Positions 5,977 through 13,445 of a DNA stretch of 64,000 nt are shown here, one piece after another. Under the pieces are notes generated by a model, which saw only the letters and a program-made list of their open reading frames with translations, did no database searches and was not told the origin of the DNA. The stretch is taken from NCBI GenBank assembly GCA_027214385.1, contig JAPVXR010000004.1:186001-250000 (forward strand), read 5' to 3'. Within the stretch, counting starts at the first letter, position 1. Every line of letters starts with the position of its first letter. This DNA is from Cryomorphaceae bacterium 1068. GTDB lineage: Bacteria > Bacteroidota > Bacteroidia > Flavobacteriales_D > Cryomorphaceae. A program made the position numbers and the translations under genes.

Positions 5977-6247
5977 GGCACGGTGATTTGGTCAGTCTTG
6001 GTTATACAACGACGTGCAAGATAGCCATTCTTAAAAAGTAGGGAAATACTTACTTGTGAGTAACTGGAAGCGGGGCTAGAAAGGGTTGAAGTGTTTGAGA
6101 AATGCCGGTGCCACAATTCCTTGGTAAGAAATCAGAATTGCTTGAGTTTTGGTAGTTCGCAAAGTAAAAAAGACACTGGAGATAAATAAGTGTGGGCAAA
6201 GCCCACTCCCAATTGACATCGAGATAAGCCTCTCAAGCTGATCGGAC

Positions 6248-6277
6248 AAAAAAAGCCTCCGCAATTGCGGAGGCTTT
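6248..6277 (-). terminator. Stranded original tRNA-Gln terminator
   Basis: A 26-bp perfect palindrome at 6252-6277 (GCCTCCGC / GCGGAGGC core) is followed on the minus strand by a T run. It directly abuts the 14-bp copy of the tRNA-Gln 3' end at 6278-6291. Without the inserted element this hairpin would lie immediately downstream of the tRNA gene, so it is most simply the ancestral tRNA terminator, now about 6.9 kb from its gene. Confidence 0.8.
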
Positions 6278-6291
6278 GTTGTCCCACTAGG
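6278..6291. repeat. Left attachment site (14-bp direct repeat)
   Basis: The 14-bp sequence GTTGTCCCACTAGG occurs here and again at 13214-13227, where it is the 3' end of the tRNA-Gln gene (minus strand CCTAGTGGGACAAC). With the next bases it forms an inverted repeat, TTGTCC-CACTA-GGACAA (6279-6295), the usual form of a tyrosine-recombinase core site. The integrase gene begins 184 bp further in. Confidence 0.85.
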
Positions 6292-6475
6292 ACAATAATA
6301 TCCTTTTCTACCTTTCTATAATCTTATCTCATTATAACTATTATCTACCACAAACCAATGTTAACAGCTAATTAAGGGGCAACCTTGATAAGCTAATAAA
6401 CGAATAGAACAAAAAAATCTCGTCACATTTTACGTCACACCACACAAAAGATTACCTTTGGACAAACGCTTTAAA
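6292..6475 (+). promoter_or_regulatory. Integrase promoter and candidate arm sites
   Basis: This AT-rich stretch lies between the left attachment site and the integrase. TACCTTTG at 6453-6460 matches the Bacteroidota -7 element TAnnTTTG and would give a very short leader before ATG 6476. CGTCACA occurs twice, at 6421 and 6433. The longer motif TACGTCACACCA (6431-6442) recurs with one mismatch at 13147-13158 near the other end of the element, as expected of integrase arm sites. No convincing -33 box was seen. Confidence 0.45.
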
Positions 6476-7747
6476 ATGGCAAAACCAAGATTTACCCTAT
6501 TCGGAAAAAGTGATGATACGGCTAAGATGATCAAGCTGGTTCTTCATTACAAAAGCAAACGATTTGTCTACAGCACAGGGATTAAAGTTGCCGCTGAAGA
6601 TTGGAACGAGAAGACAGAAAGACTGCGCGACAGAAGCCACCTTTCCAATAGGAAGGCTATCAACGATTATTTAACCGAACTTTCTGCAAGAGCTGAGAAG
6701 TCTTACTACGAGATGACTCTAAATAATGGCAGAGTTGACAAGGAAAAGCTGAAGATCATCCTTACAGGGGAAAACTCACAACCCGAAACCGAACAGGATG
6801 AAAGCATCACTAGCTTCCTTAAAAGCTGGATTGAAAAAGCGGAAGCTGGCAAGATTAAAAAGCCTACCCGTAATGGGCAAAAAAATGGCGGTTTCAGCAC
6901 TTTAACCATAAGACAGTACAAGAACACCCTTATGAAAATTGAAGGCTTTCAGCAAGCTCAAAAGAGGACTTACAAATTCAGCGAATTGGACTCTTCCTTC
7001 TATGAAGCCTTTAAATTCTACCTAGAAGACTCGCTTGAGCTTTCCACCAACACGATTGGAAGTAGAATTAAAGACTTGAAGTCTATTTCTCGAAGGGCAA
7101 AAAAGGAAGGAATCAATGTAAACGAAGAAGTCTTTACTAACACCTTTTTAAAGGTCAAAGAGGATGTTCGCCACGCTGTTCTTGACCTAAAGGAAATTAA
7201 CCTACTATTCAATTATCCGCTACAACTAGACAGCACTTTCGATTTAGTGAGAGATGCCTTCATTATAGCCTTGTGGACAGGGCTAAGAATATCGGATTTA
7301 AAAAGGCTCAAGCCAGAGAATATTGATCATGAGAAAGGCTTTATTTCAATCTTTCAACATAAAACAGGGAATCAAGTAATATTGCCTATAAGCCATCAAA
7401 TAGCCCACACCTTAAATAAAAGAGATGGAAAGCTTCCGAGGTTTATTTCTGAACAACGCTTTAATGAATACCTAAAAGAAGTGTGCAAACTAGCAGGCAT
7501 TAATAAGTACGTTCAACTCTCAGCCAATGAACCCGCTAAACCTAAATACGAATTGATAACATCTCACACTGGCAGGCGATCCTTTGCAACAAATGCTTAC
7601 CACTTAGGAGTAGATTTGCTTACCATAATGAACTGCACAGGACATAAATCTGTCGCAATGCTACTTAAGTATATAAATGTAAGTCAGGAAGAGCATGCAA
7701 CAACATTGCAAAAGGCATTTGCGGGTGCTTTTGCAAATCTTGTATAA
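6476..7747 (+). CDS. Tyrosine recombinase (site-specific integrase)
   Basis: This enzyme would catalyse integration and excision of the element at tRNA-Gln. Counting from ATG 6476 (423 residues), an N-terminal arm-binding domain (about 1-95) is followed by a SAM-like core-binding domain (about 105-210) and a C-terminal catalytic domain. The catalytic residues are all visible: Arg271 in WTGLRISDL, His364 and Arg367 in SHTGRRSFA, His in TGHKS and Tyr399 in LLKYINV. The open frame extends upstream to a TTG at 6458, but the ATG has a well-placed TAnnTTTG element and a better start. It reads inward from the left attachment site. Length and layout match Bacteroidota integrases of tRNA-targeted islands. 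It appears intact. Confidence 0.95.
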   Translation: MAKPRFTLFGKSDDTAKMIKLVLHYKSKRFVYSTGIKVAAEDWNEKTERLRDRSHLSNRKAINDYLTELSARAEKSYYEMTLNNGRVDKEKLKIILTGENSQPETEQDESITSFLKSWIEKAEAGKIKKPTRNGQKNGGFSTLTIRQYKNTLMKIEGFQQAQKRTYKFSELDSSFYEAFKFYLEDSLELSTNTIGSRIKDLKSISRRAKKEGINVNEEVFTNTFLKVKEDVRHAVLDLKEINLLFNYPLQLDSTFDLVRDAFIIALWTGLRISDLKRLKPENIDHEKGFISIFQHKTGNQVILPISHQIAHTLNKRDGKLPRFISEQRFNEYLKEVCKLAGINKYVQLSANEPAKPKYELITSHTGRRSFATNAYHLGVDLLTIMNCTGHKSVAMLLKYINVSQEEHATTLQKAFAGAFANLV

Positions 7748-7817
7748 CATGCATTGAGCTTTGGGAATCACCACAAAAAGGACTGACGTAATCCCTTCCC
7801 GCGGACAAGTGTAAAGT

Positions 7818-7856
7818 AAAAAACCCTTTGACAGATAGACTGTTAAGGGGTTTTTT
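7818..7856 (+). terminator. Terminator downstream of the integrase
   Basis: A 14-bp stem with two G-T wobbles (arms about 7821-7834 and 7840-7853, loop ATAGA) is flanked by an A run on the left and a T run on the right. It sits 70 bp past the integrase stop and faces the end of the convergent gene at 7937, so it probably works in both directions. Confidence 0.8.
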
Positions 7857-7936
7857 GTTCTGGGGTTTAAACGCAAATGGTACGAACTAGAGCCTATCCG
7901 AGAGTAAAAAGCAGGATATCAATTTTAATTATATGT

Positions 7937-8752
7937 TCACTCATCGAAACTAAAAAACACATATCCCCTTTCTAAAAACTTATCATCACAAAAGAAACTA
8001 AAATGACCATTCGAATCAAAAAAATCAATTGCCAAACCTATTGTGTTAAAAGAATATAGAAGTGATTCTTGTATCATTTTATAATAACCATCATGCCAAT
8101 GTTTCTCTCGGTCGAATGATACACTTGAATAGTGAACGATCCCCGAATAACTTTTCCATAAATAGTATGCTCGAACAGCATTATTGGCATAATTTTTCTG
8201 CGCGCATAATTTCGCAACGACTTGTTTCATCTGGAGGAAACCTTTAAAGTCCGTTTTCTCATCCGTCTTGAAATACTTCGCATTCTGATCTACGCTTTTA
8301 AATTTGGCGAGAACATGATCATAATAACCTTGGGTGGGTAAGTTCTTGTCTTTTCCTTCGAAAACTTGCTCGTTAATATCCGCAGCTTCTTTAATCGATT
8401 TAAAGGATTCTGCATACTCCTTTGCATTCAACTTAATAATTGCCTCATCAGTTTTGGAGCTATACATCTTCAAATATGATAAATGAAGAAAGTCGTCAAG
8501 CATCGCTCTTAGAATTATTTCAATGGTGTTTAAACTAAAATGCTTTGGAGAACCCATTAGGGTGTGAATATCCCTGTTCAGAATATGATGCCTCATTAAA
8601 ATTCCCTGATAATAGTGGAATGTGTCATTATCAGTCTTTGCTTTTAGAGATTCTTTATATGCTTCTTTGGCATAATCTGAGAGCGCCATAGAATCGACTA
8701 CTATTTCATCTATTGGCAATTTAGGAACTTGAATCTTTCTCTTTGTTGACAT
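7937..8752 (-). CDS. Helical DUF5677/HEPN-like cargo protein
   Basis: A 271-residue protein with no signal peptide or membrane segment, predicted mostly helical. Two stretches, IEIILRAMLDDFLHLSYL and YLWKSYSGIVHYSS, resemble the paired helices of the DUF5677-type families, often linked to defence or abortive infection. A DREKHWH stretch near residue 220 has the R-x4-H spacing of HEPN RNases, but the match is short and could be chance. It lies between the integrase and replication genes, the usual cargo place of small islands, 104 bp from the next minus-strand gene. Start ATG 8752. The family call is tentative and the function is unknown. Confidence 0.5.
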   Translation of the reverse strand: MSTKRKIQVPKLPIDEIVVDSMALSDYAKEAYKESLKAKTDNDTFHYYQGILMRHHILNRDIHTLMGSPKHFSLNTIEIILRAMLDDFLHLSYLKMYSSKTDEAIIKLNAKEYAESFKSIKEAADINEQVFEGKDKNLPTQGYYDHVLAKFKSVDQNAKYFKTDEKTDFKGFLQMKQVVAKLCAQKNYANNAVRAYYLWKSYSGIVHYSSVSFDREKHWHDGYYKMIQESLLYSFNTIGLAIDFFDSNGHFSFFCDDKFLERGYVFFSFDE

Positions 8753-8856
8753 CTCTGATTCGTGCTTACTAAAAGGATTTCTTTGCTGAAAATTCCCTTG
8801 TGTGAATATAGCCTACAATTTAAAGGGTGTCTTTTTTCTTAGAAGCTAAAACTGAA

Positions 8857-9849
8857 TCAATAGAGCTTTTTACCAATATTGTATTTTTCCATTAAATTTT
8901 CCCTAACTGATTGAGGTGTTGCTTTTTCAATCAATAGCATTTTGTCATGTTCCCAAACTCCATCAACCAGACCAGAATCTTCAGCGAAATGAATCCAAAT
9001 ATTTCCAAGAGCATAAAATGCCAAAACAGACTGATCATACCCCCCGAACCGACTTGGCTCCAAATGAATCAGTCTTATTCTTGCTCTCTCATTTAATTCA
9101 TATTCATCCCCGCTTGAATACACTTTTCTCCCAAGATGAGTAGCAACTTCTTCTTCAGTCATCCCAATCCTAACGAAGTTTTTAGCCTTAGTGCCTGCTG
9201 ACAAAACTTTCTGCCGTATAGCTTCTATTTCATTATTTACTTCTTGCTCCTCTCTTTGATATTGGATTAGTTGAGATTTGATTTGTTCTAATTCATTTTT
9301 TGCCTTGTTATAACTTGCTAATTGGATATTCAACTCTTTGCTTTTAACAGCTAATTTTCTTTCTAATTCTTCCATTTGATTGGCCTGATTTTCCAATTCA
9401 ACATCAGAATATTTAATAAGACTTTTTAGACTATCAATCACCAAGCTTTTTTTTCGGACTGAAAGAGTTTCATTGATTCTTCTTAAGACTTCTTCTGGGT
9501 CTGCTTGTATTTCAGCTCTTATATAGTATTCGTACCCGTCCCATTTCTCTTCAAGTATTTTTGTTTTGGTTGTTCCTACGCTAAACGTCTTAATCTCATT
9601 TGTAAAGAAGTCTTTGGTCATTTTCCCATTCAGCTCTTCGACCTCATAGTTCACATAACTTTCAACATAGGTTCCTAACTCTTCCACTAGAAAAGCCTTA
9701 ACTTCCTCTAAAGCTCTCTGTCTGGAAGTTATCTTGCTGTCAGAGTCACTTGCCCTATAGGTGTAATCTCTTACAAAAGTTTTTGACTGCCCATCAACAC
9801 TGAGAGTTACTAAAAGTGAGAGTAGAAATGATAGCTGCTTAAGATTCAT
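8857..9849 (-). CDS. Exported coiled-coil protein, FlgT-like N-domain
   Basis: A 330-residue protein with a signal peptide (MNLKQLSFLLSLLVTL, cut near VDGQS), so it acts outside the cytoplasm. Residues about 20-130 (SRQRALEEVKAFLVEELGTY, then WDGYEYYIRAEI) resemble the FlgT/LPP20-like N-terminal domain of envelope proteins. Residues about 140-215 are a Glu/Lys/Gln-rich coiled coil. The C-terminal part (RIGMTEEEVATHLGR) recalls the start of SmpA/BamE-type domains. It is an odd passenger for a small mobile element, where most cargo is cytoplasmic. A sensing or envelope-protection role is possible, but nothing shows it. It may be co-transcribed with 7937-8752. Confidence 0.6.
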   Translation of the reverse strand: MNLKQLSFLLSLLVTLSVDGQSKTFVRDYTYRASDSDSKITSRQRALEEVKAFLVEELGTYVESYVNYEVEELNGKMTKDFFTNEIKTFSVGTTKTKILEEKWDGYEYYIRAEIQADPEEVLRRINETLSVRKKSLVIDSLKSLIKYSDVELENQANQMEELERKLAVKSKELNIQLASYNKAKNELEQIKSQLIQYQREEQEVNNEIEAIRQKVLSAGTKAKNFVRIGMTEEEVATHLGRKVYSSGDEYELNERARIRLIHLEPSRFGGYDQSVLAFYALGNIWIHFAEDSGLVDGVWEHDKMLLIEKATPQSVRENLMEKYNIGKKLY

Positions 9850-9937
9850 CAGTCCAAAAGTAATCCTAAATCAATCAAAAATAAATCTTTAAATCCCTTA
9901 CGTGATGTGGACAAGACCCAAAGCACCCGTTTAGAAC

Positions 9938-10237
9938 TCAATTAATAGAACCTAAAAAGGCCAAGACCGCTAAGACTACCATAATCCAAAAAACCCCTAT
10001 CGAAGTAGGTACATAAATTTCTTTCTTGAAAAATAGAAAGTACAAGAAAGTCAAGAGTAATCCTATTATAACAGGAGAGAAAATTCCAATGCAGTAGAAG
10101 AAGGCCAACATTGACAATTGGAAGTTAATCGTACCATTTGCTAACAACTTAATAAGCCAAATTGCAGCAAAGAACGAAACAATATACTTCAGCCCTTTCC
10201 TGTCGTAAGAAAGTTTCATTTTCGGATTCCACTTCAT
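9938..10237 (-). CDS. Small multi-pass membrane protein
   Basis: A 99-residue protein with about three hydrophobic segments (near YIVSFFAAIWLIKLL, MLAFFYCIGIFSPVIIGLLL and IGVFWIMVVLAVLAFL) and a Lys-rich, cytoplasmic-looking N-terminus. ATG 10237 is chosen over a TTG eight codons upstream. It is 88 bp from the exported-protein gene in the same direction, so the three minus-strand cargo genes could be one unit. No family is recognised. It could be a membrane partner of the neighbouring cargo proteins; that is inference from position only. Confidence 0.6.
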   Translation of the reverse strand: MKWNPKMKLSYDRKGLKYIVSFFAAIWLIKLLANGTINFQLSMLAFFYCIGIFSPVIIGLLLTFLYFLFFKKEIYVPTSIGVFWIMVVLAVLAFLGSIN

Positions 10238-10622
10238 AGTAATCGATTTTTGTTCTAACAAGAAGGTTGGGGGTTCTGATTATACCTTACGAAGAATAAT
10301 CAAAAGTGATAATATTTGGTTCTATATCTCCTTCCCGCGTCCGCTCACACAAGTTATTGATTCTTAACCTAACCAACTAATTAAAAGATAAAACCCTATT
10401 TCCCTACAGAAGTATATACAAAGCCCAAAAACCCCTTTGCTATCCCTTTATAGGAAGTATAAGAACGTTTAAATCATCGATAAAAGTTGAGAAAAGCACA
10501 TTACATATAATCAAAATAGCCTTCTTTTTCTCTATCGCGTTACACGTCTTTTCTTACCTCACCTTATATTTTGAGCACTTGATTTCATAAAATGAATAAT
10601 TGTAGCATGCGCATCTTTAGTT
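10238..10622. other. AT-rich gap between rep and cargo genes
   Basis: No open frame is supported here. On the minus strand, TTGGTTAGG lies near 10365-10373, a copy of the TTRGTTARG motif that is repeated upstream of the HTH gene. A TATAAT-like hexamer sits about 45 bp before the membrane-protein start. The stretch may hold the cargo promoter or an origin; nothing firm can be said. Confidence 0.35.
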
Positions 10623-11606
10623 TTAAGCTCTCATAAGCTGGATTTTAGCCTCTTTAAAGCAATACTTCACACAATTGTCCATCTCTTCAATTAAATTGCC
10701 TTGTTGAGCATCTGTAGAATCACTAAATGCTTTGTTGAGTCTTGACTTCATTCTTGATGCCATTCTCCCGTTTGTAATATTGCCTTTGTGGTTTTCTTGC
10801 TCAATGGCACTATATACATAACTGTAGCCTTTACTATTACACCATTCGTTAAATCCATAGTTTACCATCTGCGACAATGAAGAGAAACCCCATTCCTTGT
10901 TAAATTCACTCAGCTTATGAATAGTCAGGTAGTCGTTATACCAGTAATCGACCAAGGCTGAATAGTTCTCTTTTTCAAGTAACTCTCCCAAAGTGTTAAA
11001 TCCAATTTGTCGCTTCATTTTTGATTTGAAGGTCAACTCTATACGTCCAATATTCATAGGTTGTAGTACATCAGGATAGTCCATTTTCTTCGCTATGGCA
11101 TCATTTCCTTTGTTGTAAAATTTCAACCTTCTGCTGTTATGCTCAAAGTAAACCGTCGAACCGTGACTTACTGTAGGTAATCCTAATCGTGAATGTTTAC
11201 CAAAAATCGGCACATACACCTCTGGCTTATGACTAAGCCCAAAATTAAATGCAAACTCTGCCTTAGACAAAATACAATCTGCCAAGCCGAGATTAAGATA
11301 TTCTTCTAATTGGCTCACTGCATGATGAAGCTGCACAAAGGATAGTTGCTCAACGTTGTTTCTAAAGTAGAACTTTGTAATGCTTCCAGAGATATTTAGC
11401 ATCGTTTGCGAAAATGAAATAGTCAAACTACCGAATTTCATTGTGTGTTTATGAACTACATTATCAGTTCTTGTCTCTCTTGTTTGCCCTTTGAATCTCT
11501 TCTCTAACATGTGGTACTCACCGCTAGTTAATGAGAATTTATTTAATGATACGTTATCAAGCATAAGTATGGAATTACTCCCCAAAAGGACGGATTTCGT
11601 CCTCAA
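10623..11606 (-). CDS. Phage/plasmid II/X-type replication protein (putative)
   Basis: A 327-residue cytoplasmic protein. The order of motifs looks like the gene II/X replication initiator family of filamentous phages and small plasmids: a beta-rich start with LNISGSITKFYFRNN, then a helix and a SKAEFAFNFG strand, then STVYFEHNSRRLKFYNKGND, then GRIELTFKSK. In that family the protein nicks the origin and starts rolling-circle replication. The nicking tyrosine could not be assigned by eye. It is 22 bp downstream of the unknown gene at 11629, so the two form an operon. If correct, the element can probably replicate as a circle after excision. The alternative is an unrelated Bacteroidota island protein. 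Confidence 0.55.
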   Translation of the reverse strand: MRTKSVLLGSNSILMLDNVSLNKFSLTSGEYHMLEKRFKGQTRETRTDNVVHKHTMKFGSLTISFSQTMLNISGSITKFYFRNNVEQLSFVQLHHAVSQLEEYLNLGLADCILSKAEFAFNFGLSHKPEVYVPIFGKHSRLGLPTVSHGSTVYFEHNSRRLKFYNKGNDAIAKKMDYPDVLQPMNIGRIELTFKSKMKRQIGFNTLGELLEKENYSALVDYWYNDYLTIHKLSEFNKEWGFSSLSQMVNYGFNEWCNSKGYSYVYSAIEQENHKGNITNGRMASRMKSRLNKAFSDSTDAQQGNLIEEMDNCVKYCFKEAKIQLMRA

Positions 11607-11628
11607 GGGAAGGTTTATTAATATTGGG

Positions 11629-12264
11629 TTAGTAATAGATCTCTTTTAGGTAGCTTTTCTTCAGTTCGCTCCACTGATCAGGAGCGGCCAACGGTTTACA
11701 AGCTTCAATATTCCGAACTCTCATAGACGCTAGGATTTCAGAAAACTGATCCGCGAATATTATTGAATCAGTTACGCTTCTAGCCATGTCAAAGAGGTGG
11801 ATTTCCGCTAGGGAGAGACTTTGCGAGAAAATTATTACTCCTTTAGATTTCTTCCAAGCAGGGTATTGCATTAGAAAACCTGCTTCTGACGCTTGAATAG
11901 TATAAACCAATCCACCTGAACCCTTCTTAGATTGACCTATTTCAAAAAGAGGTTGCGACTCTTCACCGCTTTCATTCCAAAAATCAAAAATCTTGTCCGT
12001 ATCTGATCTTTTTACGAAATGGTCTACAGTTTGCTCATCGAAGCTTTTATCATCTCTTAAACCCAACCTCAGACCCTTGGTAAACCCGTCAAAGAGCATA
12101 CCTATACCCTCTATATCTTCTATCCTTTGCGGAAAGGTGGCCGTTACATAGAGATGAGTGTCTTTTAAGCGAGCGTCACCTGCACCTTCTAGCTGCTTGC
12201 CCGTTGCCAACCAAAATGATTTCGTTTGTACTGGCTTGACTTTAAATGAATTAATTGTATCCAT
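11629..12264 (-). CDS. Unknown element protein, co-transcribed with rep
   Basis: A 211-residue soluble protein of no recognised family: no signal peptide, no membrane segment and no clear catalytic motif. It has mixed alpha/beta character, with a middle part rich in charged residues. It directly precedes the replication-protein gene (22-bp gap) and follows the HTH gene, a position that in small phages and plasmids often holds a replication or ssDNA-binding accessory protein. That role is only inferred from position. Start ATG 12264. Confidence 0.6.
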   Translation of the reverse strand: MDTINSFKVKPVQTKSFWLATGKQLEGAGDARLKDTHLYVTATFPQRIEDIEGIGMLFDGFTKGLRLGLRDDKSFDEQTVDHFVKRSDTDKIFDFWNESGEESQPLFEIGQSKKGSGGLVYTIQASEAGFLMQYPAWKKSKGVIIFSQSLSLAEIHLFDMARSVTDSIIFADQFSEILASMRVRNIEACKPLAAPDQWSELKKSYLKEIYY

Positions 12265-12351
12265 GTATTAGAATTTAACGCTAGGCTACACGGCAGTTAA
12301 AAACAAGTCTTAACTTTGAACCGCGATAGCCATGCTTGGTTATTGAATAGA

Positions 12352-12681
12352 TTAATTAAGCGCAGATGTTTTCGAAGCCACTGCGCTTTTTTTTGTTTCC
12401 AGAGATGATGAAAGTGCCTCCATAATCTCTGATCTTAAATAATAGACTCTTCTGCCTATCGTGCGTTTCTTTAGTAAGCCTAGCTTCTCCCATTCCCTCA
12501 TAGTAGGATAGGAAACTCCAAGTAGGTGCTTGGCTTCTTTACGCGTTACAATTTCCTCACTAGTTTTAGCTTCTGGAATATTTGCAGCGTTAGTTAGTCC
12601 CGAGAGTTTAGAGTCAATCAGGTTTTCTAATTTTTCGAATAGGCTCTCTTGCGAAAGGGGGATTAAGGTAAAATCTGCCAT
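12352..12681 (-). CDS. Excisionase-like helix-turn-helix protein
   Basis: A 109-residue DNA-binding protein. Residues about 43-90 are a MerR/AlpA-type winged helix-turn-helix (TRKEAKHLLGVSYPTMREWEKLG, followed by a GRRVYYLRSEI wing). This is the fold of small excisionases and of regulators common in Bacteroidota islands. Residues 1-40 are a poorly conserved helical leader and the last 15 residues are Ser/Ala/Lys-rich. It is the gene nearest the right attachment site, and its upstream region holds repeated TTRGTTARG motifs it may bind. It likely directs excision or controls the downstream genes. Confidence 0.78.
   Translation of the reverse strand: MADFTLIPLSQESLFEKLENLIDSKLSGLTNAANIPEAKTSEEIVTRKEAKHLLGVSYPTMREWEKLGLLKKRTIGRRVYYLRSEIMEALSSSLETKKSAVASKTSALN
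12358..12394 (+). terminator. Plus-strand hairpin with T run inside the HTH gene end
   Basis: An 8-bp perfect stem, AAGCGCAG / CTGCGCTT (12358-12365 and 12381-12388), continues into a T run on the plus strand. It overlaps the 3' end of the minus-strand HTH gene, so it does not end that gene's own transcript. It would end a plus-strand RNA. TAACTTTG at 12311-12318 is a possible promoter element for one. Confidence 0.45.
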
Positions 12682-13164
12682 AGGCGTAATATTAATTTAG
12701 TTAGGCTTAACCTTCATTAGTTAAGCATTGCCGAATTTATTTGGTTAAGGAGCATTTACACACTACACTCAATTCACATTTGGTTAGAGTTTTCAACGGA
12801 AAATGTCAATAATCTCCGCTAGACCAATAAGCGCGGACGCTGTAGAAAATCAAAAATGTTAATCCTTATCAATGAGTTGGGATATTTCGCTAAGATTTGG
12901 TCTAACCTTCTCAATCAGATAGTAAAAACCAAAGAAAACATAATATATATCTGTTTTTCAAGATATTAAGACTCTTTTTTGAAAAGTATATTTACCTAAA
13001 GCCTGAAGGGAGGTTGATTATACACTAATCCACCGTGGGGCATTTGAAGATTGGAAACAGGGGGCGGCCTTTCTGAAAATTGAAAGTGTAAATTCGGTTC
13101 GCTACACTGCTGAAACTATATCAAATCAACACATGTAGGCACAATATACATCACACCATAAAAC
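12682..13164. promoter_or_regulatory. Element right-end control region
   Basis: This stretch of about 480 bp has no supported gene. Four direct repeats of TTRGTTARG or a near match lie at 12697, 12717, 12741 and 12780 (the last reads TTGGTTAGAG), just upstream of the HTH gene start. TACATCACACCA at 13147-13158 matches the motif at 6431 near the left end. It probably holds the HTH-gene promoter and operator and integrase/excisionase binding sites. Confidence 0.45.
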
Positions 13165-13199
13165 AAAAAAACCCTTAACAATTTAATGCTAAGGGTTTT
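13165..13199 (-). terminator. Element-borne replacement tRNA terminator
   Basis: A 10-bp stem (AAAACCCTTA / TAAGGGTTTT, loop of about 12 nt) is followed on the minus strand by a T run. It lies 16 bp past the tRNA-Gln attachment repeat, inside the element, and so replaces the ancestral terminator now left at 6252-6277. Confidence 0.8.
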
Positions 13200-13213
13200 A
13201 CACTTTTGATGAA

Positions 13214-13227
13214 GTTGTCCCACTAGG
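13214..13227. repeat. Right attachment site (tRNA 3' end)
   Basis: The second copy of GTTGTCCCACTAGG. It covers the 3' strand of the acceptor stem and part of the T stem of tRNA-Gln, so the tRNA stays whole after integration. Confidence 0.85.
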
Positions 13228-13287
13228 GCTCGAACCTAGACTCTTCTGTACCAAAAACAGACGTGTTGCCAGTTACACCATGGGACA
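13215..13287 (-). tRNA. tRNA-Gln (anticodon UUG)
   Basis: On the minus strand it folds as a 73-nt cloverleaf: acceptor stem TGTCCCA / TGGGACA, D stem GTGT / ACAC with GG in the loop, anticodon stem TCTGT / ACAGA with loop TTTTGGT (anticodon TTG), and T stem CTAGG / CCTAG with TTCGAGC. CCA is not encoded. The 3' end is the integration site of the neighbouring mobile element. Confidence 0.95.
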
Positions 13288-13314: not shown

Positions 13315-13445
13315 ATAATTCTCTTAATTACCGCCACTCAATCTCCAAAAAAACACAAATAATCCCCATACTTCTTAATGGTTCCAAAGTGTCGGAACGA
13401 AGCAGGGTTATTTTCTTATTTTCGCAGCCATAATTGACCATCCAT

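Follow-up and report, generated by a model that had tools for sequence, protein, structure and literature searches.

Several described systems lie close to the locus analysed here. PICIs have a published layout of an integrase, a MerR/AlpA-type regulator and a replication gene, in some cases with terS (PMC6092414); Bacteroidetes get no mention in that paper. Among integrative mobilizable elements (IMEs), the canonical ones of Bacteroidetes (NBU1, NBU2, Tn4399 and Tn4555) encode relaxases of the MobP type and rely on ICEs for transfer (PMC5704250), while Rep_trans-type proteins are the relaxases of ICEBs1 and Tn916 and have been proposed as such for streptococcal IMEs (PMC5704250, PMC5714925). 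The Rep_trans/Phage_CRI initiators have motifs N', III (YxK) and IV (RxE) (PMC5714925), and a TBP-like sheet in one of them, RepDE, was remarked on by its authors (PMC4797284). Microvirus proviruses of Bacteroidetes are without integrases and use dif-like sites (PMC3091885). Below we compare with these systems an element found in a 64-kb stretch of DNA, hereafter the window.

The element is bounded by direct repeats of the sequence GTTGTCCCACTAGG, which occurs exactly twice in the whole 64-kb window and never in reversed orientation (Table 1). The second copy constitutes the 3' end of tRNA-Gln, since the intact tRNA-Gln(TTG) gene maps to 13214-13287 on the minus strand. Of 200 Markov-1 simulations of the 13.1 kb tested, 199 gave a longest chance match of 8-12 bp to the end of this tRNA and one gave 13 bp, compared with the observed 14 bp. 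The GC content between the repeats is 0.368, against 0.450 and 0.448 outside. A sequence-only reading of this DNA had described 14-bp repeats copying the tRNA-Gln 3' end and a ~6.9 kb AT-rich block between them, and both descriptions hold. Together with its inner flank (6278-6300), the distal repeat contains a perfect 6-bp inverted repeat with a 5-bp spacer, TTGTCC-CACTA-GGACAA, as would be expected of a tyrosine-recombinase core site. When the flanks are joined into the predicted attB (junction GGCTTTGTTGTCCCACTAGGGCTCG), the tRNA is restored and is followed by the hairpin GCCTCCGCAATTGCGGAGGC; the predicted attP junction is GAAGTTGTCCCACTAGGACAATAAT. The nucleotide sequence itself shows that the element entered tRNA-Gln at its 3' end over a 14-bp core, with the tRNA regenerated and a new terminator supplied.

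An empty site is present in a genome of the same genus (G001), in which tRNA-Gln is directly followed by a hairpin homologous to window positions 6249-6280. Alignment across the junction (window 6242-6291; 55 bp) shows 83.6% identity and runs on into the tRNA; the G001 contig stops ~380 bp past the tRNA and the outer-flank alignment spans only ~55 bp. The neighbouring gene on the other side of tRNA-Gln, presumably of the DUF2723 type, is 74% conserved in G001. Because the tRNA and its terminator hairpin are contiguous in G001, the block was inserted at the predicted junction. The sequence-only reading had proposed a compact, site-specifically integrated element and had named the lack of an empty site, or of a precise junction, as what would speak against it; G001 provides the empty site and the precise junction, and so backs the proposal. 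The alternative, an ordinary AT-rich stretch of chromosome with repeats that arose by chance, has next to no probability. A 14-bp match is by itself modest evidence, but the empty site in the same genus contradicts this alternative, as do exact repeats where they are expected, the foreign composition and the integrase, and nothing in its favour was found.

Table 1. Features of the element and of its insertion site (positions in the window)
Feature	Position	Strand	Basis
Original chromosomal tRNA-Gln terminator hairpin GCCTCCGCAATTGCGGAGGC, now beyond the distal att	6249..6280	-	Inverted repeat I8; homologue in the G001 empty site
Distal att repeat GTTGTCCCACTAGG	6278..6291		Sequence
Tyrosine integrase, 429 aa, likely start ATG 6476	6458..7747	+	PF00589 E 8.9e-18, PF13102, PF17293
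Hairpin AAAAAACCC...GGGTTTTTT separating the convergent int and cargo genes, resembling a bidirectional terminator	7818..7856		Inverted repeat I10
o2, 271 aa, helical by low-confidence prediction, no family	7937..8752	-	No convincing match in four libraries
o3, 330 aa, signal-peptide-like N terminus followed by coiled coil, no family	8857..9849	-	Sequence
o4, 107 aa, hydrophobic, membrane-protein-like by eye, no family	9938..10261	-	Sequence
Rolling-circle replication initiator Rep, 327 aa, likelier start ATG 11564	10623..11606	-	PF05144, motifs, fold
Small ORF o6, 211 aa, between HTH and Rep	11629..12264	-	Position
HTH_17/MerR-like excisionase or regulator, 109 aa	12352..12681	-	PF12728 E 2.9e-7; phrog_66 E 2.2e-7
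Element-borne terminator AAAACCCTTA...TAAGGGTTTT behind the tRNA, substituting for the displaced one	13161..13206	-	Sequence; folds as hairpin
tRNA-proximal att repeat	13214..13227		Sequence
tRNA-Gln(TTG), intact, integration target	13214..13287	-	ARAGORN; Rfam RF00005 E 8.6e-12

Seven ORFs fill the block: the integrase, three cargo ORFs, Rep, a small ORF and the HTH gene. The integrase has SAM_5 and Arm-DNA-bind_5 domains in addition to the catalytic domain, and R277, H370, R373, H396 and Y405 are invariant in an alignment with two relatives; no close relatives of it were found in IMG/VR. An intact integrase, an excisionase-like HTH gene and the absence of visible conjugation or capsid genes had all been noted before, and the profile matches in Table 1 agree with the first two; as to the third, searches of the element yielded neither capsid nor conjugation genes. 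Pfam and NCBIfam likewise identified no relaxase family in the seven ORFs. The small ORF o6 matches in position the unassigned ORFs of 130-220 aa seen in relatives, and hhalign detected no homology between it and the small ORFs that precede Rep there. In the window the integrase and the HTH-Rep genes lie on opposite strands at opposite ends, whereas the usual order in relatives is co-directional, and the module may therefore have been rearranged; on the excised circle, the integrase and the HTH-Rep cluster would flank attP. The region upstream of the HTH gene (12702-12911) contains several TTGGTTAAG/CTTAACC-like repeats, which are candidate operator or Xis sites.

The ORF at 10623-11606, missed as an initiator by the sequence-only reading, encodes Rep. 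It matches the Pfam family Phage_CRI (PF05144) with an E-value of 1.9e-7 and 31.5 bits against a cut-off of 21.7, and PF02486 was not reported by the same scan. D17, N84, Y164, K166, R188 and E190 are invariant in 15 homologues; D17 is the N' Asp, Y164/K166 form YxK and R188/E190 form RxE, which fits the N', III and IV motifs of Rep_trans/Phage_CRI proteins (PMC5714925). Motif I is a conservative variant, with KAE in place of RxD. The predicted structure (pLDDT 85.7) has the crescent-shaped catalytic-domain fold and best matches Staphylococcus aureus RepDE (4cwc; Foldseek E 1.4e-8, Z 13.2, rmsd 4.8, 243 residues aligned), followed by RepSTK1 (4cij; Z 10.6, rmsd 4.5, 212 aligned). Members of the TBP group, with Z below 8, ranked after both. 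Such matches are to be expected because RepDE has a TBP-like sheet, and we rejected kinship with TBP, the shared crescent sheet (PMC4797284) implying no relatedness. In the model, the catalytic tyrosine stands at the end of strand E159-165, as in Rep_trans proteins and unlike HUH enzymes, and the model as a whole supports an earlier published proposal that the Rep_trans fold extends to Phage_CRI initiators. A PDB sequence search with Rep gave no match, RepDE being reached only via fold comparison, and single-protein searches of IMG/VR, PLSDB, phage records and GTDB contigs revealed no close relatives. An origin (dso) was not found, the two intergenic regions folding no better than shuffled sequences.

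The sequence-only reading had counted three unrecognised cargo genes. This stands for o2, o3 and o4, for which Pfam, PHROGs, NCBIfam and PADLOC gave no family, only matches attributable to chance or coiled coils; one gene left unnamed at the time is the replication initiator. The PHROGs tape-measure and PADLOC matches of o3 were weak and, like the Lge1 and Flu_PA matches in Pfam, were judged to reflect coiled coils or chance. A structure model of o2 built from two sequences reached a pLDDT of 36. Its one relative among 99 related genomes (34% identical, in G032) lies directly behind a different integrase at a separate locus (L163 8276-17163), where restriction-modification-like genes, by eye resembling a type I restriction gene cluster, come further on; L163 is a separate mobile locus with one cargo gene in common with the window element. 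No o3 homologue was found in the 99 related genomes. As a guess, o3 with its signal-peptide-like stretch and the hydrophobic o4 may act at the envelope. By analogy, all three cargo genes are probably host-protective, serving anti-phage defence or superinfection exclusion, because restriction-modification systems are frequent among the genes behind Rep in relatives.

These relatives were collected with a Rep profile, which at E<=1e-6 matches 34 of 395 Bacteroidota genomes (~9%) and 10 of 199 genomes of the same order, the window's own genome being counted in both sets. Upstream of Rep, 39 of 46 loci have an HTH gene, 34 an integrase and 31 both; not all of these loci are att-delimited and some of the downstream genes may be chromosomal. 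Behind Rep and reading in its direction are, among others, restriction-modification genes of types I, II and III, and the defence cargo comprises Eco57I, N6_Mtase, Methylase_S, C5 and type III methylases, and a Panacea antitoxin. Terminase small subunits adjoin Rep in L026 and L035 (phrog_309, E 1e-12 and 3e-13) and in L044 and L144 (phrog_6299). L067 (9247-14257) is a small element in which the integrase, the HTH gene and Rep are followed in one run by the gene of a packaging motor, the terminase large subunit (phrog_2, E 2.4e-34), with no capsid gene seen nearby. A protein of ~180-200 aa of no known family also recurs near Rep (L036 8553-9146, L037 7772-8368, L043 6058-6657 and L154 7415-7951), with a weak relative in L149. 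The earlier suggestion that the element may be a new family is not supported if taken to mean an isolated novelty, given that the int/HTH_17/initiator module recurs in Bacteroidota and that other elements sit at the same tRNA-Gln. We found no name for the int/HTH_17/Phage_CRI family in the literature searched, which mostly excluded subscription journals. The element is a form of hitchhiking integrative element, an already known kind, and its integration biology is ordinary.

A different element occupies tRNA-Gln in G002, a genome of the same family and another genus (JAUICL01 in the GTDB contigs, a Bacteroidia MAG). This element (L026 10342-17818) is flanked by 19-bp repeats (CCCTAGTGGGACAACAAGA), encodes an integrase 38% identical to that of the window together with Rep-like, terminase-small-subunit-like and Panacea antitoxin genes, and has the att core TTGTCC-CACTA-GGGCAA in the same place. 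Two other genomes (G497 and G051) have a related integrase flanked by a complete second tRNA-Gln, and in G463 an 18/19 match to the tRNA end lies 5.5 kb away, behind an integrase. The tRNA-Gln is therefore a site used repeatedly, and its contents are exchangeable. L072 (8643-15979) contains two complete tRNA-Gln genes and, at 13429, a third, partial tRNA copy of 44 nt, with an integrase between, which looks like tandem elements in one site.

We consider it quite probable that the window contains a 6.9-kb member of a widespread Bacteroidota family of int + HTH_17 + Rep elements which is excised by Int and Xis, copied by rolling circle, transferred by a helper and equipped with protective cargo. 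The HTH protein would direct Int to excise the element as a circle with the attP core TTGTCC-CACTA-GGACAA, and Rep would nick one strand through Y164 and copy the circle by rolling circle. Since the element itself encodes no transfer machinery, its movement would depend on a helper, either inside the helper's phage particle or through its conjugation channel. Transfer by phage and by conjugation are close to parity, with a slight lean to phage. The copy in the window may be mobile today. With att sites defined so precisely, excision, circle formation and transfer can be put to a direct test.

The route of transfer separates three readings. If the element were a PICI-like phage satellite, helper infection would trigger its excision and rolling-circle replication, and it would be packed into helper particles. 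Size and defence cargo agree with this, its combination of int, regulator and rep is that of the PICI layout cited above, and terminase genes stand beside Rep in the five loci named earlier; however, these are only ~5 of the 46 relative loci. The window element itself has no terminase gene recognisable by Pfam or PHROGs, its own genome gives just one weak terminase-like match, and no helper or cos/pac site was identified. A satellite is thus a tentative possibility that we hold to be somewhat doubtful. Alternatively, the element may be an IME in which Rep doubles as the relaxase and a resident conjugation system moves it. Rep is in the same enzyme class as the MobT relaxases (PMC5704250, PMC5714925), with which its fold match agrees, but known Bacteroidetes IMEs have canonical relaxases such as MobP (PMC5704250), the element has no coupling protein, and no Bacteroidetes-type TraG ATPase was found in the genome, though a helper could be elsewhere. 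No oriT was identified in the element, and this reading is unlikely.

A plasmid-like element, able to replicate and integrate yet spreading only rarely, by natural transformation or generalized transduction, or else an immobile remnant, would account for the complete absence of transfer genes and for cargo that is present in almost no related genome. The core genes, though, are all intact and the att repeat is perfect, and relatives have different elements at the same site, which implies turnover; we judge this reading improbable, the least favoured of the three. An inovirus prophage was rejected for want of Zot/pI morphogenesis ATPase or coat genes, and a microvirus provirus for want of a capsid gene in the element (Pfam and PHROGs in both cases) and in view of the dif-like sites and missing integrases of its Bacteroidetes counterparts. 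A canonical Bacteroidetes IME was likewise dismissed, as Pfam and NCBIfam gave no MobP-type relaxase in the seven ORFs.

Returning to the favoured reading of a helper-transferred int + HTH_17 + Rep element, islands of this type are linked to the traffic of defence genes and perhaps to phage packaging. A broader and rather unlikely proposal is that they are Bacteroidota-wide satellites which replicate through Rep_trans/Phage_CRI initiators, travel in helper particles (some with terminase subunits of their own), carry interchangeable anti-phage cargo and compete for tRNA-Gln. The literature searched describes no such satellites in Bacteroidota. If the proposal were true, the three unassigned genes would be new defence or helper-interference genes.

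Collectively, the element shares with the canonical Bacteroidetes IMEs a Bacteroidota host and the lack of a conjugation pore of its own, and differs from them in having no relaxase of their kind. With the non-canonical Streptococcus IMEs (MobT/Rep_trans class) it has in common an integrase, a Rep_trans-like initiator and again no pore of its own; unlike them, it resides in another phylum, its initiator is of the Phage_CRI and not the PF02486 sequence class, and neither coupling protein nor oriT was found. Similar to the initiators of the pT181 family and of filamentous phages (RepDE; M13 G2P), Rep has the catalytic motifs, the predicted crescent (TBP-like) fold and the tyrosine on a strand, whereas its gene is set in an integrated element that also has an excisionase-like HTH_17 gene but lacks genes for phage morphogenesis. 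Like PICIs, which are recognised by an integrase, a regulator and a replication gene without virion genes, the window element combines a tyrosine integrase, a small MerR/AlpA-type regulator, a replication gene and accessory cargo with no capsid genes, and some of its relatives also share terS. Unlike the case with PICIs, replication in the window element is assigned to a Rep_trans/Phage_CRI rolling-circle initiator in place of a primase/Rep module.
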